Position numbers and translations under genes: made by a program. A DNA stretch of 25,919 nt from a virus, in the IMG/VR virus record IMGVR_UViG_3300030104_000293, positions 1 to 25,919 of that record; one strand, written 5' to 3'. This document shows positions 7,528 through 24,998 of this stretch, in pieces. Numbering within the stretch: the stretch's first letter is position 1; each line of letters begins with the position of its first letter. The notes beneath the pieces are model-generated. The model saw only the letters and a list, made by a program, of their open reading frames with translations, had not been told where the DNA came from and ran no database searches.

Positions 7528-7807
7528 TTTAGAAGAATTAAAAAATTCCAAAAGAATATTTAAGTCGGCTACTCCGAAAGGAGATATGTCTTGGTATGTT
7601 AAATGGATATCAAGTTTTATAATTGTAACTGCTATGTCTTTACGAGGCGTGGAAGGTATGCAATTATATGATTTAAGTTTATCTATTATAGGAGTATCAG
7701 GTTGGTTGTTCGTAGGATTACTTTGGAAAGATAGGGCATTAATAATATTAAATGCAGTTGGTCTAGCTTTTTTAATAAAGAATCTTATTACTGCAATATT
7801 TTCTTAA
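7517..7807 (+). CDS. Small membrane protein, three predicted helices
   Basis: A 96-aa protein overlapping the previous stop by 11 bases. After a charged N-terminus of about 25 residues it has three hydrophobic segments: about 27-43 (ISSFIIVTAMSL), 54-69 (LSIIGVSGWLFVGLLW) and 74-93 (ALIILNAVGLAFLIKNLITA). A W-K-D-R-A-x-I-I-x-N segment links the second and third. I recall similar short proteins with a W..DRA..I.N core in marine viruses and alphaproteobacteria, without known function. It is the last gene of the rightward arm, just before the convergent junction, and would sit in the inner membrane. A holin-like or exclusion role is conceivable but not supported by any specific motif. Confidence 0.6.
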   Translation: MKFDLEELKNSKRIFKSATPKGDMSWYVKWISSFIIVTAMSLRGVEGMQLYDLSLSIIGVSGWLFVGLLWKDRALIILNAVGLAFLIKNLITAIFS

Positions 7808-7915
7808 TTTTTTAAAAATCGACCGCACACAATCTCTTGTAAGACATTCTTTTAATGTTAGTAATGATATCCTTTGGATTTTTAATAAAAGTTCTTAGAG
7901 AGCCTCTGAGTAGCT

Positions 7916-9724
7916 CTATGAGGATTTAGCCTTATTTTGAGGGAAATATATGGTAATTGGCTCTGATTTACCCTTGACCATAATACTATCTATCTTTTCG
8001 TAAGCAAAAACATCACCCGCTAGTTCTTTAGTGTACTCAGAAATAATAATCTTCCATTGTTTGTAATCATTTCTGCCAGCAGTTGCTTCAAGTCTAGCTG
8101 ATAAATTAACTGCATCACCTACTACTGAGTAATCAAATCTAGTTTCACTTCCCATATTCCCTACAATACAAATTCCGGAGTTCACTCCAGTCCCTACATT
8201 GATAGGTGGTAAGTCTAATCCTTGTTCTTTAAATTGTTTATTTAGTTCTACTGTTGCTTGTTCTATTTCTATCGCAGATTTAATAGCTAACTCTGCATGA
8301 TTCTTACAAGGGAGAGGTGCATTCCAAAATGCCATAATACAATCGCCCATATACTTATCTATGGTTCCACCATTAGCAAGGATAATTTTTGTCATCTTAT
8401 CTAAGTAGGTATTGATAAGTTCTACTAAGCCTTCAGGGTCATCATTATTTTTAAATACTTCTGACACAGGAGTAAAGCCCATAATGTCTGTGAACAAGAA
8501 CGTCATCTCTTTTCTTTCTCCACCTAGCTTAAGAAGCTCTGGATTCTTTTGTAGCATAGCTACCATGTCTGGAGATAGATAAGTTCCAAATTGTTTTTTA
8601 ATCTGTTGTCTAAGTTTGAACTGAGTTCTAAAGTTTAAATAGAACTGTTGAGCGGCTACCACAAACATACTTATCAAACTCCAAGTAACATCTATTAGAT
8701 ATCCTATAGAAATAAAGTAATATCCTAGGTAGGCTACACCGGACATTGCAGTTCCTGCTAATGCTATACCCCAAGTAAGTCCAAAGTAACTAACAACAAA
8801 AGCCACTAATAAGACTGAGGTGCATAATAATAATAGTTCAACAAACAATCTATAGTCTGGTATCTGAGGTGATTCAATTAAAATACTTTCAGCAAGAGCC
8901 GCTTGAATCTTGTGAGGTTCTAATAAGCCCTTTGGTGTAGCTAGTTGAGGCATTACCCCTGCTGCAGTAACTCCTACAAATACAAACCTACCTGCAACAT
9001 CCATTTCTTTTAGTGTAGTCTGTGGTGTATCAACCCAGCTAATCCACTTTCTACCCATACTATCTGTATTTATTTCTGGTAAATTTCTAACTCTTATTTG
9101 TTCTATTCCGTTTTCGTTTGTTTTTATTTGATAGGTTGAAGCATCTACTAAAGTTTTTAATACTTCCGTACCAAAAGCAGCAACCCAACCGTCGGGTGTT
9201 TGTTGTAATAAAGGTAATCTTCTAACAAGGTTATCTACATCTACTGGAGCAGATACTGCACCTTGTGCTGCAGAACTTTGTAGTTCGGGAATGTTTTGTA
9301 GAAAGCCCGTAGCTTTAGGTAAGACTACATCTGGACCAAGTATAACTGTACCATGTGTCTTTGGATAATCTCCATTATTAAATTCAGGCATAGCTAAGAT
9401 ACTAGGTGAATAACTTAGAGCTGTACTAAAATCTTTATCGCCACCAAATCTATCTTCTTGAGGAAACAGTATAACCCAACCGACTCCAATAGCTCCGTTG
9501 TTTAATAAATCAATGTGAATTTGAGCAAGGTCTTGTCGGGGAAAAGGATAACCACCTCTTTCTTGTACATCTTCTTCTGTTATATTAAGAATAACAAAAT
9601 GTCCTGAAGGCTCTGGAGTTTCTACAAAGGTATCAAAGGTTTTTAATCTTAGTATTTCTAGGGGTACAAAATTAAAAAGTAAAGGTACGATTAGTAGGGC
9701 TAGTAAAGGTATTGACCACTTCAT
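7916..9724 (-). CDS. CHASE2-domain class III adenylate cyclase
   Basis: A 602-aa inner-membrane enzyme expected to make cAMP from ATP. An N-terminal anchor (about 4-22) leads to a periplasmic CHASE2 sensor domain (about 25-285). Three membrane helices follow (about 293-363), then a linker with FGTYLSPDMV and a cytoplasmic cyclase domain from about 402. Catalytic residues are complete: metal ligands D413 (FTDIMGFT) and D461 (YMGDCIMAFW), base-selecting K457 and D531 (DYSVVGD), and transition-state N540 and R544 (NLSARLE). The Lys/Asp pair favours ATP over GTP. The gene starts two bases after the FecR stop and is the last gene of the leftward transcript. CHASE2 cyclases and FecR proteins are often neighbours in bacterial genomes, so the pair was probably acquired together. 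The periplasmic ligand is unknown. Confidence 0.93.
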   Translation of the reverse strand: MKWSIPLLALLIVPLLFNFVPLEILRLKTFDTFVETPEPSGHFVILNITEEDVQERGGYPFPRQDLAQIHIDLLNNGAIGVGWVILFPQEDRFGGDKDFSTALSYSPSILAMPEFNNGDYPKTHGTVILGPDVVLPKATGFLQNIPELQSSAAQGAVSAPVDVDNLVRRLPLLQQTPDGWVAAFGTEVLKTLVDASTYQIKTNENGIEQIRVRNLPEINTDSMGRKWISWVDTPQTTLKEMDVAGRFVFVGVTAAGVMPQLATPKGLLEPHKIQAALAESILIESPQIPDYRLFVELLLLCTSVLLVAFVVSYFGLTWGIALAGTAMSGVAYLGYYFISIGYLIDVTWSLISMFVVAAQQFYLNFRTQFKLRQQIKKQFGTYLSPDMVAMLQKNPELLKLGGERKEMTFLFTDIMGFTPVSEVFKNNDDPEGLVELINTYLDKMTKIILANGGTIDKYMGDCIMAFWNAPLPCKNHAELAIKSAIEIEQATVELNKQFKEQGLDLPPINVGTGVNSGICIVGNMGSETRFDYSVVGDAVNLSARLEATAGRNDYKQWKIIISEYTKELAGDVFAYEKIDSIMVKGKSEPITIYFPQNKAKSS

Positions 9725-9725
9725 A

Positions 9726-10838
9726 TTAACTACTCTGTTTAATTGTTATCTTAGAAGAGCTACCACCATTAACAATAATCTGTGTACTTTTACCGTTCTG
9801 TACAAGTATGACTGTATACGAGGCTGATTTATCTAAATCAATTCTTACAGTATCTTCTAAGGCTTTGTAGAAAGTTAAAGTATTATCAGTAGTAAAAGTA
9901 TTGATTTGTGTTTCAGCATCGAAACCAAATGAAGTTCCTTTTAAATCTAAGTCAGCCTTTAATAAAGTTTCTGTTTGGTCCAGCTCATTGATATCCTCAA
10001 TAATATTTAAAAGGTCTTCAAGAAAATTTACATCGAGGTAGTTTATATCTAGCTCAGAAAACTCTAAATCATCTTGAGCTAAGTAGTCTATATCTAAGTC
10101 TTCAAATTCTAAGTAGTCTACATCTAATATATTATTGCTACTGGTGTCTGTTGTTGTTTCAGTTAAACTTATTTCTTCTTTCGGTGGATTAACAATTAAC
10201 ATGTTGTCAATCAACTGCGTAGTAATATCGAGTATAACTGGCTTAGATGGTTCAGTCTCAAACATAGAAACTGTAGTAGCTTGGAAGGGCTGATTGAGTA
10301 CTACCTCACCTGCAGCAGTAGCTACAAGTATTTCTCCACTTGGAGTACCATCATCTTTAGGTAGTAATATAATAAGAGATTCACCTAGTTCATTTACTGT
10401 CAGAGTGAAGTCGGTCCCACGAATTGACACGTTGGCACTTGGTGTCCTAATAGCAATGTTTTCTTTATTGATGTTGTTTAGTTTACCAGTAATAAACCTA
10501 GCAGTTCCACTAGTAAAATTAAGAGCCATCTTAGATTTAGATGGATTAGGGTCATAAATAAATTCATCTATGAGCAATTCAGAATGCTCGGTCAGACGAA
10601 CTTGGGTATCATTAAGGAAGGTAATACCCATCCTACCGTTAGAAGTTTCTACATTATCAAAACTTTCTATACTAAAAGATAAGGCAGCATCATAAGGTGC
10701 ATGTTCCCTAACGACCCTGCCGTTACCTTTAAGTTCTGTAATATTTCCTATGCTAACATCCGACTGCTGTTCCGCCATCATCTTGTATGACGCAAACACT
10801 GCCGTTATCACCAGAAGAAATAATCTTAAGCCAATCAT
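9726..10838 (-). CDS. Periplasmic FecR-domain protein with acidic pentapeptide repeats
   Basis: A 370-aa protein with an N-terminal signal sequence (hydrophobic core about 3-17). A FecR domain follows at about 55-150: FDNVETSNGRMGITF, then T-x-V-R-L-T-E-x-S-E-L, ending with TPSANVSIRGTDFTL. Residues 237-276 form eight consecutive five-residue units with Leu second (such as ILDVD, YLEFE, DLDID, ELDIN, YLDVN), and a beta-rich tail follows. FecR-type domains act as envelope signal-relay or ligand-binding modules. Next to a CHASE2 cyclase the simplest idea is an envelope partner or sensor input for it, which is inference. The start at 10838 overlaps the curlin gene by 86 bases with no clear ribosome site. 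Starting at Met20 or Met21 would shorten the overlap but remove the signal peptide, so I keep Met1. Absence of a TonB/sigma-factor pair argues against a classical iron-sensing role. Confidence 0.82.
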   Translation of the reverse strand: MIGLRLFLLVITAVFASYKMMAEQQSDVSIGNITELKGNGRVVREHAPYDAALSFSIESFDNVETSNGRMGITFLNDTQVRLTEHSELLIDEFIYDPNPSKSKMALNFTSGTARFITGKLNNINKENIAIRTPSANVSIRGTDFTLTVNELGESLIILLPKDDGTPSGEILVATAAGEVVLNQPFQATTVSMFETEPSKPVILDITTQLIDNMLIVNPPKEEISLTETTTDTSSNNILDVDYLEFEDLDIDYLAQDDLEFSELDINYLDVNFLEDLLNIIEDINELDQTETLLKADLDLKGTSFGFDAETQINTFTTDNTLTFYKALEDTVRIDLDKSASYTVILVQNGKSTQIIVNGGSSSKITIKQSS

Positions 10839-11472
10839 TATTTAATGTACTAAGTTGCTGTATATTAAAAGTTCGTGAATCACCTGTCTGGTCTAGGTAA
10901 AAGTACCCGCCAGCATATCCACTACCGTCAAAAGTTACACTATTACTGTCACCATCTATATCAACCCACGAAGTGCCGCCATCATAATTGATGTCGAAGT
11001 CCAGTGTATTTGAACTCCCGTTTATCACCCAGTCCAAGTCGGTATTACTAGCCATAGCACTTGTCCCTACATTGAGGGTAAAGTCATTGCTATCACCAGT
11101 AGCCTGAACATTAAAGTCTGAGCTATCAGCACCATAGGTATTAGTTGGGTCAACTTGAATAGTAAATTCATTTGAACTACCATCAAAATTAAAATAGCCT
11201 GTAATATTATCTCCTAAGATATCACCATAGAATAAGTTATAGTCTCCTATTTGGTTAATATCTAGAGTTAATGTAGAGCCATCTAAGTCTAATGCAGTTA
11301 GGTTTCCTGCTGAAGAATTTAAACCACCGATGATGTTTCCACCACCAAGTTGTTCTAAATCTATGTTAGCAGTATCGCCTGATTGGTCTATATATATTTC
11401 ATTATCATCCCCGTATATCAATGCACTCGTCAGCATCAACATCACAAGGCTTATCAATTTCAAAGTTTTCAT
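10753..11472 (-). CDS. Secreted curlin-repeat (amyloid-type) protein
   Basis: A 239-aa protein with a clear signal peptide (about 1-21, cleavage probably after YG). The mature part is acidic and rich in Asp, Asn, Ser and Gly. It consists of roughly eight strand-turn-strand units of about 21-25 residues. Examples are IDQSGDTANIDLEQ (28-41), INQIGDYN (72-79), VQATGDSNDFTLNV (122-135), DIDGDSNSV (171-179) and LDQTGDSRTFNIQQ (193-206). The Q-x-G-D-x-N core is the curlin pattern of CsgA and CsgB, where units stack into a beta-solenoid fibre. Encoded directly after csgF and csgG, it is the natural client of that pore. Two Cys near the end (C227, C239) are unusual for curlins. Whether it is fibre subunit or nucleator cannot be decided, as only one such gene is present. 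Confidence 0.83.
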   Translation of the reverse strand: MKTLKLISLVMLMLTSALIYGDDNEIYIDQSGDTANIDLEQLGGGNIIGGLNSSAGNLTALDLDGSTLTLDINQIGDYNLFYGDILGDNITGYFNFDGSSNEFTIQVDPTNTYGADSSDFNVQATGDSNDFTLNVGTSAMASNTDLDWVINGSSNTLDFDINYDGGTSWVDIDGDSNSVTFDGSGYAGGYFYLDQTGDSRTFNIQQLSTLNNDWLKIISSGDNGSVCVIQDDGGTAVGC

Positions 11473-12265
11473 ATTTCCAATACCCTCTATTTATTCCTAT
11501 TTTTATTAAATTTAATACGCCAGCTTCTATTGCCTTTTGCAAAGCTATAGAACCAGCTTCATTCTCAGCGACTCCTCCCTCTATCTCTACGAGTTCAGTA
11601 CCCATTTCAATAAAGCGAAAGAAATCTTGAGAAACACTTGTTGATAAAATATTTTTAGAAACCGTAGTCTCCATTAATACTTCACCAGTAGACACAGAAA
11701 CTAGTCTTAATGAAATAGTAACTACATCTTCTCTATACTGAGTACTATTACCTATGCCTAGATACCTAGCACCCAATCCACCAGTTTCAATATTGGTATC
11801 ATAAGATAAGACACCACCCTGTATTATAAGACCAGCAAATAATAAAGGTTGAAGCTTTATATCTTCTTCAAAGTTTTCTCTGGTTGACCGAATAAGTTGT
11901 CGTTCTTTAGTAAGATTATCTAATCCTACTCTTTCAACAACTCTAAAAAATTGTCCATTAGATGCATGCTTTAAAGCCCTAATGAGTAAAGCTTCAGGAG
12001 CTTGTGTGACTGCTGTGCTAAACATAGCAAAGCTACTGTTGCTTTTTCTTTGTCCTGTTAAATCTTGAAAGCTGTCTCTATACACTGCTACTACAGGTCT
12101 ATTTTCTGCAGGCGGTAAACTTGCTAATTCTTCTGATTGCAAATCTAAAACTTGAGCAGGCTTTCTATCTTGTGTTATAAATAAGTCTTCGTTCTTTGCT
12201 ATTACTGCACAACTAGAAAGTAAAACTGCCAATAGGCAAACTGATAACTGTTGTATTCCCTTCAC
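11405..12265 (-). CDS. csgG: CsgG-like outer-membrane curli secretion channel lipoprotein
   Basis: A 286-aa lipoprotein matching E. coli CsgG (277 aa) along its whole length. Signal peptide and lipobox LLSSC give lipidated C19, and no Asp at +2 predicts outer-membrane sorting. Shared blocks include VAVYRDSFQDLTGQ (59-72), FSTAVTQAPEALLIRALK (82-99), VERVGLDNLTKERQLIR (110-126), GGLGARYLGIGNSTQY (162-177), VSTGEVL (191-197) and GINRGYW (257-263). CsgG forms a nonameric barrel that exports unfolded curlin; here F82 keeps the constriction Phe56, but the neighbouring Asn55 is Met81 and the Tyr51 region reads SNSSFA. Its start lies inside the csgF end (53-base overlap) and its tail overlaps the curlin gene by 68 bases. 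Two extra C-terminal Cys (C274, C281) are unusual. Identification is firm; cargo is inferred from the adjacent curlin gene. Confidence 0.95.
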   Translation of the reverse strand: MKGIQQLSVCLLAVLLSSCAVIAKNEDLFITQDRKPAQVLDLQSEELASLPPAENRPVVAVYRDSFQDLTGQRKSNSSFAMFSTAVTQAPEALLIRALKHASNGQFFRVVERVGLDNLTKERQLIRSTRENFEEDIKLQPLLFAGLIIQGGVLSYDTNIETGGLGARYLGIGNSTQYREDVVTISLRLVSVSTGEVLMETTVSKNILSTSVSQDFFRFIEMGTELVEIEGGVAENEAGSIALQKAIEAGVLNLIKIGINRGYWKYENFEIDKPCDVDADECIDIRG

Positions 12266-12662
12266 TATCTGTAATCCTTAATGTTATAACTCCGTCAACA
12301 ACTTCATATTCTATGGTGTTGCCTTCTAATTCTAATATCCCACTATCACTAGGGGTTTCTCCAAATAAATTCTCTACTAGTTGTCTAGATAGTTGTGCAT
12401 ATATTCTAGACTCTAAGTTTCTTATAAATCTTGCAAGAGTTGTGTTTTCTGCATCTCTTTCTATTTGTTCTTGCAGTGCTTTTATTTCTTCTTTTATTGT
12501 CATCTTACGCATGTGTTCTTGATTCTCAATCGTAAGATAATGTGCTGAAGTTCCTATACCACTAAAGCTAGGACTTTTAAATTTATGTACCATTTCATCA
12601 GCATCAGCAAAGCCACTAACACCTAGTACCAAGACTATAAATATTGTACTTAGTATTTTCAT
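12213..12662 (-). CDS. csgF: CsgF-like curli assembly factor
   Basis: A 149-aa secreted protein matching CsgF. An upstream in-frame ATG at 12704 exists, but I place the start at 12662. That Met begins a proper signal peptide (MKILSTIFIVLVLGVSGFADA) and has AAGGA about eleven bases upstream, whereas the longer version overlaps the preceding gene and puts charge before the signal. The mature N-terminus MVHKFKSPSFSGIG matches the CsgF segment that inserts into the CsgG channel (MTFQFRNPNFGG in E. coli). The middle is helical (LARFIRNLESRIYAQLSR) and the C-terminus is a beta domain (VVDGVITLRITDSEGNT) like that of CsgF. In E. coli CsgF caps CsgG at the surface and helps anchor and nucleate fibres. 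Order csgF-csgG-curlin supports a working secretion unit. Confidence 0.9.
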   Translation of the reverse strand: MKILSTIFIVLVLGVSGFADADEMVHKFKSPSFSGIGTSAHYLTIENQEHMRKMTIKEEIKALQEQIERDAENTTLARFIRNLESRIYAQLSRQLVENLFGETPSDSGILELEGNTIEYEVVDGVITLRITDSEGNTTVISLPIGSFTF

Positions 12663-12675
12663 TTCTATTATTTCC

Positions 12676-12963
12676 TTAATCTTTTCGCTGGTCTTTTTTT
12701 CCATCTGCTCTTGCTAACCTATCTACATCTACGGGAACGCCCATAGCGGTTCTACACATTGTATCTATTCTTATTATGTCATTATCTATTTGTCTTACTC
12801 TATCTATTAAAGCTACTATCATGCTGTGTTGTGTATCTAATTTCTTATGAACGTCGGCGATTAGGTGGTTAAACAGTTTCCAGACCATCCAACCTGCGGC
12901 GACTGCAAAAGCTGCAGGAATACCTACAGTTTCTAATAAATCCATCCATGTTTTTGTATTCAT
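12676..12963 (-). CDS. One-helix membrane protein, possible lysis accessory
   Basis: A 95-aa protein with one hydrophobic segment (about 14-37, GIPAAFAVAAGWMVWKLFNHLI) and a predicted coiled coil after it (KLDTQHSMIVALIDRVRQID), ending in a charged tail. Its start shares one base with the stop of the holin-like gene (TAATG) and csgF begins 13 bases after its end. Small one-helix proteins with a following coiled coil are common beside holins in phages, sometimes annotated as BhlA/UviB-like holins. I place it tentatively in the lysis cassette as a holin partner. It is not CsgE: it lacks a signal peptide and the cysteines of that family. A role linking lysis and the curli genes is not shown. Confidence 0.6.
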   Translation of the reverse strand: MNTKTWMDLLETVGIPAAFAVAAGWMVWKLFNHLIADVHKKLDTQHSMIVALIDRVRQIDNDIIRIDTMCRTAMGVPVDVDRLARADGKKDQRKD

Positions 12964-13406
12964 TATCTTCCTTTTGCTAAACTACCACCAAAGTACATGC
13001 CAATAATAGCTGATACTAGGTTAGTATCTAACTGAGTTATTACCAAGCCCTCGAAAGTTATCCATTCAAATATTTCTTTACCTTCTGTAAAAAACAAAAA
13101 GCCCGGATTCCATTGTGTATACCCTACTGTTACTAATACATCTGGATAGTACACAGCAACTAGTTTAGGAAATACAACAATAGCAAACACAGAACTTAAA
13201 GCTATAATTCTTCTAGTCCAAGCAAAGCCTTTATCTTTTTGTCCGGCTTCAATAGATTGCTTTCTAGCTTTCATATCAAACTCACCACGAGTTATAAGAA
13301 GCTTTTCATTCTCTGCTTTAGCCTTACGACTTTCAGCCCAGATACTCATTAATCCACCAAGAATTGTCGAGGCTAACATAGTAATTATTTCAAACGGAAA
13401 GCCCAT
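12963..13406 (-). CDS. Three-helix holin-like protein
   Basis: A 147-aa membrane protein. A short N-terminal helix (about 5-22, FEIITMLASTILGGLMSIW) is followed by a charged, Lys/Arg-rich region. A second membrane segment (about 66-85, RIIALSSVFAIVVFPKLVAV) and a C-terminal hydrophobic segment (about 129-143, VSAIIGMYFGGSLA) complete it. Overall shape and the ending resemble the phage/gene-transfer-agent three-helix holin family. It follows a lysozyme gene by one small gene, and overlaps its neighbours by one base each, so it most likely forms the inner-membrane lesion that releases the lysozyme. Assignment is by topology and context, not by a catalytic motif. Confidence 0.7.
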   Translation of the reverse strand: MGFPFEIITMLASTILGGLMSIWAESRKAKAENEKLLITRGEFDMKARKQSIEAGQKDKGFAWTRRIIALSSVFAIVVFPKLVAVYYPDVLVTVGYTQWNPGFLFFTEGKEIFEWITFEGLVITQLDTNLVSAIIGMYFGGSLAKGR

Positions 13407-13555
13407 TAAAATTCTCCTAACATAAACTTTTCCATCTCTTCTTCATACAAAGGTCTATAGTCTTCCATAGTAAACCAAGGTAAACCAAGATGTGTTCTAA
13501 CCTTGCAGTTTTCCTGCCAAGCTTCTTCTAATTGTTGTTCAGTGTAGAGGAGCAT
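13406..13555 (-). CDS. Small hypothetical protein (49 aa) in the lysis cassette
   Basis: A 49-residue open frame starting at 13555, 17 bases inside the end of the lysozyme gene, and ending with a TAATG junction to the holin-like gene; a TTAGGAG near its end serves that next gene. It reads MLLYTEQQLEEAWQ, then CKVRTHLGLPWFT, then MEDYRPLYEEEMEKF. This is an amphipathic, acidic, Tyr/Trp-containing sequence without signal or membrane segment. I recall similar tiny proteins (Y-T-x-Q-Q-L...C-x-V-R-T) in other marine phages near structural or lysis genes. Function unknown; the perfectly nested junctions support it being translated. Confidence 0.62.
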   Translation of the reverse strand: MLLYTEQQLEEAWQENCKVRTHLGLPWFTMEDYRPLYEEEMEKFMLGEF

Positions 13556-14006
13556 TGTTAATATCCTCTAATATTTTTATAGTTTTACTTACTTCTTCCA
13601 TACGTTTTCTTATACCGGGCTTACCTAATTCAACAGCATTTTTATATTCTTTGTTATTTAAAAACTCTATAGCTGCTTCTTTATATTTTTTTTCATTTAG
13701 AAGTTTTATTGTTTTAGGGCTTTGTCCTATTGAGCCTCTGTAATATTCACTAAATAAAGCAACTTGAATTTCTGTCGGGTAAGAGTTAAAAGCAGGTAAT
13801 AAATTATTAATCTCTTTTAATCTAATATTTACGTCTTCAGTTAAAAATTGTTCAGCTTGTTCTAGTGTAATAACATCTTCTTCTTTAATAGTCGGACCGT
13901 ATCTTCCATATCCAATAGTATAATATTTTTCAGATTTTATAGGTTTATAAGCTTCTAATTTTAAACCTTCTTCTTTTCTAATATTAGCTTTAATTAAATC
14001 TAGCAT
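13539..14006 (-). CDS. Phage lysozyme (GH24-like endolysin)
   Basis: A 155-aa muramidase-type endolysin. I start at ATG 14006, which has GGAAG eleven bases upstream; a GTG at 14024 would add six residues. IRKEEGLKLEAYKP gives the catalytic Glu (E13, T4 E11), YYTIGYG holds T30 (T4 Thr26), and PGIRKRMEEV near 130-139 matches the family's closing helix. The T4 catalytic Asp20 position is Pro22, and the usual His of GYGH is Arg35. Many phage lysozymes of the EKYYTIGYG subtype also lack the T4-like Asp, so this may be a subfamily trait rather than inactivation. It has no signal peptide and so would depend on the adjacent holin to reach peptidoglycan. It directly follows the large virion protein gene. 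Confidence 0.8.
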   Translation of the reverse strand: MLDLIKANIRKEEGLKLEAYKPIKSEKYYTIGYGRYGPTIKEEDVITLEQAEQFLTEDVNIRLKEINNLLPAFNSYPTEIQVALFSEYYRGSIGQSPKTIKLLNEKKYKEAAIEFLNNKEYKNAVELGKPGIRKRMEEVSKTIKILEDINNAPLH

Positions 14007-14024
14007 AAGAATAAAAGCTTCCAC

Positions 14025-17000
14025 TTAATCTTTTTTACTTTCAGCAAAGCCTAGCCTGTCCATCTGTTCTTGATAAGGCTCGTCAGTAATAGGATTGATA
14101 CGGTCTGCTGGGTCCTCTTTTGTTTGAGGAACATCTGGTCCTGTTACTAAGCCACCTGTTACTCTTCTTTCTCTTATTTTTTCTGTTAGGCTTCTAGAGA
14201 CTGTTTCACCTATACCTTCTTCCTCCATAAGCTCTTCAAAAAATTCCATATCTTGTTCACTTATATTTTCTAAATCTAAAATAGGTAATTGTTTAAACTT
14301 CCAATTATTTGTCGCTATAGTATCTAAAATAGCTCTTTTATCTTCGCCACTTCTTATAACTTCTGCTAATAAAGTCTTGTAAGATTCTTCTCCTATTATA
14401 ATAGGATGAAAATTATTTGTTAAAAATTGTAAGTCTGTTTTATTTTCTTTTTTAAAACTTGTATTATCTTTTATAATTTCTCCTAAAGTTAAAGGATTTA
14501 TGTCAAAATATTTAGCAGCTTCTACAGCTTTTATAGCTTCAACATAATCTCTGTAATAAGATGAGTTTATTTCTAAATGTTTGTTAAGAATATCTTGTAA
14601 AGAAATTGAACTATCAGTTTTTGCATCATTAATTAATTTATGTAATTCATTTCTATATTGCTTGTATGTACCATCTAAGCCTTTTAATTTAAATGATAAT
14701 GCATTTTCTGCTTTTACTTCTGTAAGAGGATTAAATCTTAAACCTGTAGCATTAACTATTAATTCTCTACCAGAATCTATAGGGTTGTCATATTTATCTT
14801 TAGGATTTTCCTCAGTTAATTCACGATAAATAGAGTTTCCTAATTTATCCTCTTTATATAATTGACGAATTGTTTGAGGTATAAGAGTTTCAAACGCATA
14901 TTCAATTTTTTTACCAGTTATATCAAGAATGTCATCAGTTTCAACAATACCTATTTTATTTTTAGTTTTACTATCCTCTGCTTGAAATAATACATCAATA
15001 GCTCTTTCAGTAAAAAGAGCCTCATCTACAAAAGGTTTAAAATATTCTTTTGCGCCTTCAAAAACAGCATCTGATATTCTTTTAAAAGCACTATCAGCAG
15101 GAGTATTAGGGTCTAGTAATTCTCTTAAAACACCTCTAATAGCATTATTTACAGGTGCATCTGGGTCAGTAAATTGTGTATCTATATAATATAAATTACC
15201 TTCTTTGTCTGTCATATAAACCCACTCACTATTTTTTTCCCACGGCGCACCATATAAATCTTTATAATTTCTGTCGTCTTCTTCTGTAACTCCAAATAAA
15301 TTACGACTAGCAGTAGAAACTGCAGTAGTTCCAAAAGCACCATAAGTTATTTTACCTGCTAATCTATCAAAACCTCTTTGCATTAAAACTTTGTTATTAG
15401 AGTTTATTTCATACCAACCTCTTTTGTAAGTTTCAATAGTATTTCTAAATCTTTCAGCATGGAAAGAATAAAAATTACCAAAGGGTAAAGTTCTAAGTCT
15501 TTGCGCTACAAAAGGAACTAACTCATAAGTTGGAAAGGTATTTCTAACTATGTCTGCTGCTTCTTGTTTTAGTTCTGCTAAAGTTTTTTGAGTATTAATT
15601 GGTTTTAATTTTTCAGCCTGTTGTAAAACTTTTAATTCTTTATCAAAAGCAGCTATTCTAAATAAATCATCTTCAGCTACATATAAATCTGTTGTTTTAT
15701 TAAAAATTTCTTGTGCTTTATCTTTAGAAGCTTCTAAAATATTTTTATCTTTATTTTTTATAATAGAAGAATCTTTAAAAAAATCATCACCTACTTTTAA
15801 TGTAGCTTGGTTATTAATTAATCTTTTAAAATCTCCAACTTTAACATTTTGATTAACAATTCCTAGCTCTAAAAATTCAGCATAAATTTTTTGTAATTCT
15901 TTATCTCCACCTTTAGTTAATCTGTCTTGTAAAATTTTAAAAGCATTTCCTGTTTCAGCACTAAAAGGATTCATACCATTTGAAAGCATTATAGTTCCTT
16001 GACCATAAGTATTTCTTAAATGAGTATAAAGATTACCGACGGTAGCAGCAGCTTGACCATAACCTTTTGCCATTAAAAACATACTATAAACTTGTTCAGC
16101 TCCTTCCCTAATCTTGTTTTTATTAACAGTATTAAAAAGTCTTGCTATTTCTGGCGTAGTTTTTAAACCATTTAAAGCACCAAACTCTGCACCTTCAATT
16201 GTTGCAGACTGAAATCTAAAAAAATCATCTTTTTGTCTTTGAGTTTTGGCAGAAGCAGCAAATTTTTCAGCTTGTTTAGGTGTAAAGAAAATTTTATTAT
16301 TTCCTGCTTTATACAGGTCATCATAAAGTTTAGCATTAAATATATCATTTGATAAATTAGAAACAGTTCTAAAAATTCTTGTAGTAGCATCTTCTTTACC
16401 TAATAATTTTTGAATTGGTTCTGCAAATTGTTTTCTTTTTTTATAAACAATGTTTAAATTTCTCATTTTTTGATTTTTAAACATATCGTCTAAAAATTTT
16501 TTATAATCTTTACCCTTAGTACCATCTAATAAATTTTTAATTTGTACTTCCATTCTGCTTCTTAAAGCATCATCAGATAAAGATTTATACCCGTAAGTAC
16601 CTTTATTTTTTTTAACTAAATAATCTACTGCGTCATCAATTCTTTGTTGAGAAGGCTTAGACTTAACATCTTCAAATCTTCTGTAACTTTGTCTTAAATA
16701 TTTACCAAGATTTTTTCTAATTTCTGTTTTAAGTTCACTAGAAATTCCTTTTTGTTGTAGTAATTGAGAGCTTAAATCATCAATAGTTTGCCTAATTTCT
16801 TTAAGTTGAGTTTTAACTTCTTTAGGTAAATTTTTATATAGCTTAGTTCTTGTAACATTGTTTTGCGCAGTTAAAATATCCTCTATAAATTTATTTAATT
16901 CATCAGCATTTTTAAAATAATTTTTAGCCGATAACTTTTTTAATTGAGTTTCTAAATTTGTAGCTAAGTTTTCTGCTCTGGAAGCCCATGCTATTTTTGC

Positions 17001-24651: not shown

Positions 24652-24742
24652 TTTTTTTCCTACTTTTTATAGTTTTTAAAAGCTTAGAAGGCTCGCCTAT
24701 AGCAATTAATATTGCTACTCCTTTACCTTTTTTCTTAGCCAT
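24635..24742 (-). CDS. Tiny basic phage protein (35 aa)
   Basis: A 35-residue open frame beginning MAKKKGKGVAILIAIGEPSK and ending KSRKKNGKKK. AAGGG lies five bases before the ATG. Its start overlaps the previous gene by eight bases and its end overlaps the 947-aa gene by 17 bases. It has a short hydrophobic centre (VAILIAIG) between two Lys-rich ends. I recall very similar tiny proteins (M-x-K-K-K...G-x-A-I-x-I-A-x-G) beside structural genes in other marine phages. Role unknown. Its small size makes the call uncertain, but spacing and ribosome site are good. Confidence 0.5.
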   Translation of the reverse strand: MAKKKGKGVAILIAIGEPSKLLKTIKSRKKNGKKK

Positions 24743-24998
24743 TTTTACCCTTGTTATAAATCATTTCAAAAATCTTATCGATTTTTTCTCCTAGTTTTTC
24801 TAATCTATCCATTACTTGTTCCATTTCGTCTTTGACCTCTATTTTAGTTACATAATTTTTAGCTATGTCTTCTCTAGTTTTATTTAATAATATGTCTTGT
24901 CTTTTTAGCTCTGCAGTATTTTGTCTAATGTTATATAACAATGGAGCTACTACTAATGTAATAATTACATTCCAAACTAAATAAGGTGTAAATTCCAT
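24735..24998 (-). CDS. One-helix membrane protein with coiled coil
   Basis: An 87-aa protein with an N-terminal membrane segment (about 6-22, YLVWNVIITLVVAPLLY). A charged coiled coil follows (LKRQDILLNKTREDIAKNYV, then EVKDEMEQVMDRLEKLGEKI). The K-N-Y-V-T-K-x-E-x-x-D-E-M pattern is frequent in small phage proteins found near tail, lysis or virion genes, where holin-like or virion roles have been suggested. A similar architecture occurs at 12676-12963, but the sequences do not obviously match. It lies one base after the oxygenase-like gene in the same transcript. Confidence 0.6.
   Translation of the reverse strand: MEFTPYLVWNVIITLVVAPLLYNIRQNTAELKRQDILLNKTREDIAKNYVTKIEVKDEMEQVMDRLEKLGEKIDKIFEMIYNKGKNG

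Follow-up and report, generated by a model that had tools for sequence, protein, structure and literature searches.

The virus record IMGVR_UViG_3300030104_000293, analysed here over its whole 25,919 nucleotides (the 25.9-kb window), carries at the 3' end of its minus-strand gene arm a cassette of six genes, read in the order p95, csgF, csgG, curlin-like, FecR-domain and CHASE2 cyclase. Judged from its sequence, this cassette is real and conserved and probably functional in curli export and signalling, and it is best read as a late-made unit for amyloid export and envelope signalling (probability roughly 0.55), with its benefit to the phage unproven. Support for this reading is provided by the domain matches, the gene order, a ladder of Gln, Gly and Asn residues in the curlin-like protein, the catalytic residues and linkage of the cyclase, the linkage of p95, the likeness of the FecR domain to the adhesin structure 5ix9, a terminal IxIxQ strand in the FecR-domain protein and a relative of the operon in Hyphomonas TMED17. 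The cassette genes, followed by the two upstream neighbours, are:

12676..12963, minus strand: p95, a virus-specific protein with a single transmembrane segment plus coiled coil (phrog_18771, 1.2e-20; linkage to csgF)
12213..12704, minus strand: CsgF, with a probable start at 12662, where the initial annotation ended its cluster (PF10614, 2.3e-17)
11405..12265, minus strand: CsgG outer-membrane pore, with a lipobox-like LSSC seen by eye (PF03783, 9.6e-50; alignment)
10753..11472, minus strand: curlin-like repeat protein (Gln/Gly/Asn ladder; all-beta model)
9726..10838, minus strand: exported FecR-domain protein (PF04773, 4.3e-10; terminal IxIxQ; fold matches)
7916..9724, minus strand: CHASE2 class III adenylate cyclase (PF05226, 1.9e-26; PF00211, 1.9e-18; catalytic residues)
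12963..13406, minus strand: 147-aa membrane protein, holin-like (no Pfam match over cut-off; phrog_38283, 6.1e-7, function unknown)
13539..14024, minus strand: lysozyme (PF00959, 5.8e-13)

The CsgG and CsgF domains were both over the Pfam cut-off, so that the domains by which type VIII secretion is recognized are present. The curlin-like protein contains eight GxxN motifs against a mean of 3.1 after shuffling (eight or more in 19 of 5000 shuffles), and residues Q30, G32, Q41, G43, N46, G76, N79, G98, N101, G126, N129, N155 and N177 are invariant across 19 aligned viral curlins. Its predicted structure is all-beta (predicted local distance difference test score, pLDDT, 82.8; predicted template modelling score, pTM, 0.81). 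Comparison of this model by VIA-align placed general beta-solenoids at the top (best Z 16.2) and gave the CsgA fibril a Z of 11.5 with a root-mean-square deviation (rmsd) of 8.7. A sequence search of the PDB returned the curlin 8c50 at E 0.21, ranked after 2l0d at E 5.6e-4, and the NCBIfam CsgB model matched at 4.1e-4, far under its cut-off. The N-termini of the csgF, csgG, curlin and FecR open reading frames (ORFs) are hydrophobic when judged by eye, in agreement with the export signals which the initial annotation had ascribed to all four proteins.

That annotation had also described these four genes as consecutive and intact on one strand, which is borne out by the open ORFs and the Pfam matches, the curlin match being below cut-off. 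Its four-gene cluster stands as far as it goes, although p95 and the CHASE2 cyclase, which belong to the same unit, were both missed, and the cluster is located at the 3' end of the run of virion and lysis genes rather than inside it. The window consists of two converging arms. The plus-strand replication arm, with the end of a DnaB-type helicase gene, a DNA polymerase and a ribonucleotide reductase (RNR, named from synteny with phage HTVC115P), ends at 7807, and the minus-strand arm, which runs from virion genes through the lysozyme and the 147-aa protein (possibly holin-like, from its position and hydrophobic stretches) to the cassette, ends at 7916. All cassette ORFs are open and adjacent ones nearly touch or overlap, by up to 86 bases, with a single base separating the FecR gene from the cyclase gene; such contact suggests one translationally coupled unit. 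The synteny proposed for checking was recovered on virus contigs, where the gene order is repeated in 80 viral loci found via CsgG, to the extent that each contig covers it, with the cyclase sometimes on the opposite strand. Each locus search covered the best 80 loci, with remoter relatives lying outside that coverage. Scanning of the window produced 11 promoter sites, where shuffled sequence gave 25.8 on average, and five terminators, where it gave 3.0. A repeat search of the window returned nothing beyond short chance-like families.

With ORFs of at least 80 aa compared at E 1e-8, 14 window ORFs match HTVC115P (bases 1-50000), eight match HTVC008M and six match Melnitz in the portions compared, and one matches the HTVC023P-type genome 023Pt_psg01 (bases 10000-59769). 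The window polymerase is 50-52% identical to those of HTVC115P, HTVC104P and HTVC103P, with the next best at 41%, and the 1498-aa virion protein has 27% similarity to HTVC027P and 023Pt_psg01 across a quarter of its length. By these comparisons the window phage is kin to HTVC115P and not to the HTVC023P-type genome compared; since its kin are phages of SAR11, SAR11 is its presumed host. The cluster is unlikely to be a chimera assembled with host DNA: many viral contigs carry the module between the same flanks, and elsewhere the window matches genes of HTVC115P-type phages. CsgG matches were found in 7 of 50,697 phage records, comprising two of HTVC008M, four Melnitz strains and one 'Salmonella phage'; HTVC115P, HTVC104P and HTVC103P were not among these seven. 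The 'Salmonella phage' record (OR851715.1) is 1,499 bases long, has no annotation and looks like bacterial DNA. In HTVC115P the corresponding junction is occupied by small ORFs and an Hsp20 gene, and the cassette therefore has the look of accessory genes inserted at the meeting point of the two arms. No earlier report of the module in the HTVC115P-kin lineage was found in the literature searched, figures and supplements aside. The names HTVC103P and HTVC115P and the word 'ribonucleotide' do not occur in the main text of Wittmers et al. 2022 (PMC9599517), where, in the part available, the HTVC103-type forms a separate lineage.

The FecR-domain protein (370 aa) opens with a hydrophobic segment, and FecR (62-150) is the only domain over the Pfam cut-off. 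In FecR anti-sigma regulators an N-terminal anti-sigma part precedes the transmembrane segment and the FecR domain; no such part was found in the 370-aa protein, which therefore does not class as a regulator of this kind. The predicted structure is of moderate quality (pLDDT 71.0, pTM 0.49). Using Foldseek, the FecR domain matched the PupR signalling domain, and it also matched 5ix9, an adhesin 'cell surface anchoring domain' (TM-score 0.70 by target, rmsd 1.6, 62 columns), which was found by sequence at E 0.0039 as well. A literature search for 5ix9 yielded nothing relevant. The final strand of the protein is a curlin-like IxIxQ which is invariant in 19 viral rows; in another alignment Melnitz carries Val in the initial position of the motif, and the Gln is missing from TMED17. 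Our hypothesis is that the FecR-domain protein anchors or nucleates curlin.

The window cyclase has both the CHASE2 and the catalytic domain, together with D413, K457, D461, S533, N540 and R544, all standard, and it accordingly qualifies as a CHASE2 class III cyclase. Among these residues are what we take to be the two metal Asp, the Lys and the transition-state Asn and Arg. None of the 62 distinct FecR loci of podophage type with RNR-beta nearby lacked the cyclase, which is on the FecR strand in 50. Identities of the CHASE2 and catalytic parts were 80% and 44% between the window and L009 (L numbers are our labels for loci), 70% and 35% between L059 and L046, and 33% and 78% between L046 and Melnitz. 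Judged by these identities, the two parts have different histories, catalytic domains having been swapped beneath conserved CHASE2 sensors. Several catalytic-domain types accompany related CHASE2 sensors in the cyclase genes of L009, L041, L046, L057, L083 and L099. Ser replaces the transition-state Asn in 3 of 15 aligned cyclases that reach this position (L046, L083 and L099), and L041 ends before it.

With respect to a receptor for the cyclic AMP (cAMP) that such an enzyme would make, domains binding cyclic nucleotide monophosphates (cNMP) were found in 2 of 60 Pelagibacteraceae genomes, which are perhaps incomplete and in which divergent receptors could escape a domain search, against 10 of 14 well-known genomes used as control. 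The class III cyclase domain (PF00211) was likewise found in 2 of the 60 (control, 5 of 14). Few as they are, these genomes with either domain count against the reading that the host family has no receptor. The two cyclase ORFs concerned, in L509 (277-2028) and L510 (1495-3285), match the viral cyclase model so strongly (1.5e-236 and 5.5e-199) that they may lie on phage contigs binned into SAR11 metagenome-assembled genomes (MAGs). No cNMP-binding domain was detected in 19 chosen module-bearing phage records, a set to which the window does not belong, nor among the many window ORFs scanned with Pfam. Taken together, the host and phage counts leave cAMP without an evident receptor, and the presumed host seems poorly equipped to read such a signal. 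Among the matches listed in a literature search on cAMP in Pelagibacter, there was no mention of Pelagibacter.

The linkage of p95 to the module is close to complete. Of the distinct viral csgF genes that were reached by way of CsgG or the cyclase and have at least 1.5 kb of upstream sequence, all 79 have p95 within that distance, and with the loci fetched via p95 itself added the figure is 226 of 226. In the other direction, csgF or csgG follows 156 of the 157 distinct p95 genes for which 1 kb or more of downstream sequence is available. The sole exception, L464, which weighs against an obligatory pairing, has no csgF after p95 on its strand. In this rearranged cassette (7650-15628) a pair of p95 genes occupies one strand of the contig, and the remaining module is encoded on the other. 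In annotated phage records p95 was found in six, these being the csgG-bearing HTVC008M and Melnitz records. Lys and Arg are commoner after the transmembrane segment than before it in 24 of 24 p95 members, from which a cytoplasmic coiled coil is predicted. Being short, present in one or two copies and at the matching position, p95 is likely the gene called 'HK' (histidine kinase) in PMC9599517, an identity we infer rather than confirm; no kinase domain occurs among 25 of the 26 Pfam families that the 24 members matched at E 1, and p95 is only about 95 aa long. A second small gene in the window (24735-24998) has a hydrophobic N-terminal segment and a coiled-coil-like remainder, and by eye resembles p95 in layout only.

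In the mechanism we propose, curlin would be exported late in infection via the CsgG-CsgF pore without a CsgE gate and would polymerise on the infected cell. The FecR-domain protein would act as anchor or nucleator at the periplasmic or outer face, the CHASE2 cyclase would sense the condition of the envelope or of the FecR-domain protein and make cAMP, and p95, with its coiled coil predicted to lie in the cytoplasm, would link the unit to the inner membrane. The phage would probably benefit because dying cells and debris become coated with sticky or shielding material, which would alter adsorption and encounter. If fibres do form, infected SAR11 cells, reported in the available text of PMC9599517 to be without T8SS (type VIII secretion system) genes, would gain an amyloid surface solely by infection. 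Several observations weigh against this mechanism. The curlin-like protein scored 15.9 bits against PF07012 where 20.7 are needed, and its model had no Foldseek match at E 0.001. No CsgE-type match was obtained among 20 window ORFs scanned with Pfam, and anti-sigma signalling domains surpass 5ix9 as Foldseek matches to the FecR domain (E 4.7e-5 for PupR versus 0.042). In 12 of the 62 podophage-type loci the cyclase gene runs opposite to the FecR gene, the late timing follows from gene position only, and clumping was not seen in the cultured carrier Melnitz, according to the available text of Buchholz 2022 (PMC9004378).

Other functions of the same genes must be weighed. The CsgG-CsgF pore may be an outer-membrane device for lysis or its timing, a role put forward for Melnitz (PMC9004378); p95 would then be its holin-like partner, and curlin would plug the pore or be a passenger. 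This is unlikely in our view, even though the lysozyme and the holin-like gene are directly upstream in the window, 3 of 24 p95 members have a weak YvrJ match (best 0.0094), and, of 77 distinct loci that have no convergent RNR-beta, 30 (e.g., L222, L243, L245 and L251) have a lysozyme-family gene no more than 3 kb downstream of the cyclase; in the other 47 there is no lysozyme match within 3 kb, and retention of curlin, FecR and the cyclase is left unexplained. An early coat of fibres that blocks superinfection, as put forward in PMC9599517, would fit the occurrence of the module in unrelated phage types and the position of the cyclase, in 12 of 62 loci, in an RNR arm that may be transcribed earlier. 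We consider it quite unlikely, as csgF, csgG and curlin end the virion and lysis arm, which suggests late synthesis, when exclusion would be of least use. Use of an ungated pore for the uptake of small molecules (PMC9599517, PMC7029224), with curlin and FecR secondary, agrees with the missing CsgE-type match but is improbable, since conserved CsgF (a point from the available text of PMC7029224) and curlin would be superfluous for uptake.

Returning to amyloid export with envelope signalling, a further proposal can be offered only tentatively. The viral module may be more than a captured bacterial curli operon, in that viruses would have added p95 as an obligatory inner-membrane coiled-coil gene and would keep exchanging the cyclase catalytic domain under a conserved CHASE2 sensor, and it could form a self-contained envelope-to-amyloid device whose cAMP acts via some receptor in phage or host, or leaves the cell as a message to others, in a host family almost without cAMP receptor or class III cyclase.

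For bacterial comparison 78 bacterial-genome CsgG loci were used, the best among the matches listed. In 70 of these the viral models found no FecR, cyclase or p95; the other eight were TMED17, the cut Pelagibacter-MAG contig L094 and six MAG contigs with p95. These six (L088, L090, L091, L092, L099 and L103), labelled Bacteroidota or Rhodobacteraceae, have a viral-type csg module with two p95 genes and are probably misbinned phage. A cyclase match beside csgG was found in five of the 78, so that the idea of FecR and cyclase being common in bacterial curli operons was rejected. Four of the five (L088, L090, L091 and L099) are probably phage contigs in MAGs because p95 is present, and L088, L090 and L099 also have extra ORFs outside the module similar to reference phages. 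The fifth is L089, a 705-kb contig of TMED17, with csgF-csgG-curlin-FecR-CHASE2 cyclase on one strand in viral order, no p95 match, and flanks which by eye contain a TonB-type receptor gene and ordinary metabolic genes. This operon suggests that FecR and cyclase came with the module and that p95 was added in viruses. It also speaks against the statement that FecR and cyclase are absent from bacterial curli operons, a thin objection from one MAG. The CsgG tree separates a group of 32 rows (24 viral, seven MAG contigs and TMED17) from 56 other bacteria with an SH-like approximate likelihood ratio (SH-aLRT) of 99. Nesting of TMED17 among the viruses was considered and set aside: it branches within the viral part of the tree (SH-aLRT 80, end branch 1.47), but the alternative, in which the 31 virus-type rows are kept together without TMED17, was not rejected (approximately unbiased p 0.479). 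FecR-domain matches at 1e-10 were obtained in 138 of 385 Alphaproteobacteria, but only TMED17, the search centre, passed 1e-40 (next, 2.9e-36); at 1e-40 one of 398 Pseudomonadota matched, and at 1e-10 one of 101 in TMED17's family.

The module itself is known. In the parts available, PMC9599517 describes it from nine podophage genomes of the HTVC023P type as well as from myophages, its members being 'HK', CsgF, CsgG, CsgA/B, FecR and often a second CsgA/B and adenylate cyclase, and Zaragoza-Solas 2020 (PMC7029224) reports csgF and csgG in pelagimyophages, as the initial annotation had stated. Its central claim of a phage-encoded amyloid secretion unit survives as the best reading, the core of it having already been published. 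A dedicated curlin gene is not, as had been supposed, less described, being present in a PolA podophage in PMC9599517, and the suggested coating, gluing or decorating roles are mostly in print as superinfection defence, aggregation (both proposed in PMC9599517, together with uptake) and 'sibling capture' (PMC7029224). The pore genes of Melnitz were given their lysis role in PMC9004378. No functional test of an ocean-phage curli module was found in the literature consulted on it, as far as its available text goes. New here are the HTVC115P-kin lineage, p95, cAMP without evident receptor, the TMED17 operon and the cyclase domain swaps, which raise the questions of p95's part in export, the reader of the cAMP and the source of the module.

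Compared with the published pelagiphage module (PMC9599517, HTVC008M, Melnitz), the window shares the order of csgF, csgG, curlin, FecR and cyclase, with one or two short genes before it, but belongs to an HTVC115P-like rather than an HTVC023P-type phage, has one p95 and no second curlin match, and has in place of 'HK', if this is p95, a protein without kinase domain. Bacterial curli operons have CsgF, CsgG and curlin-type genes in common with it, whereas FecR, cyclase and p95 were unmatched in the 70 of 78 best-listed loci noted above. The TMED17 operon agrees with the window in gene content from csgF to cyclase, strand and order, and differs in having no p95, a curlin of 504 aa and a FecR-domain protein without terminal Gln. 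In the Burkholderia FecR/CHASE2 operon (PMC5192318, available in part) an exported FecR-domain protein likewise adjoins a CHASE2 sensor and is linked to biofilm, but there CHASE2 is on a histidine kinase, FecR is accompanied by LysM, and csg genes are not mentioned in that text.

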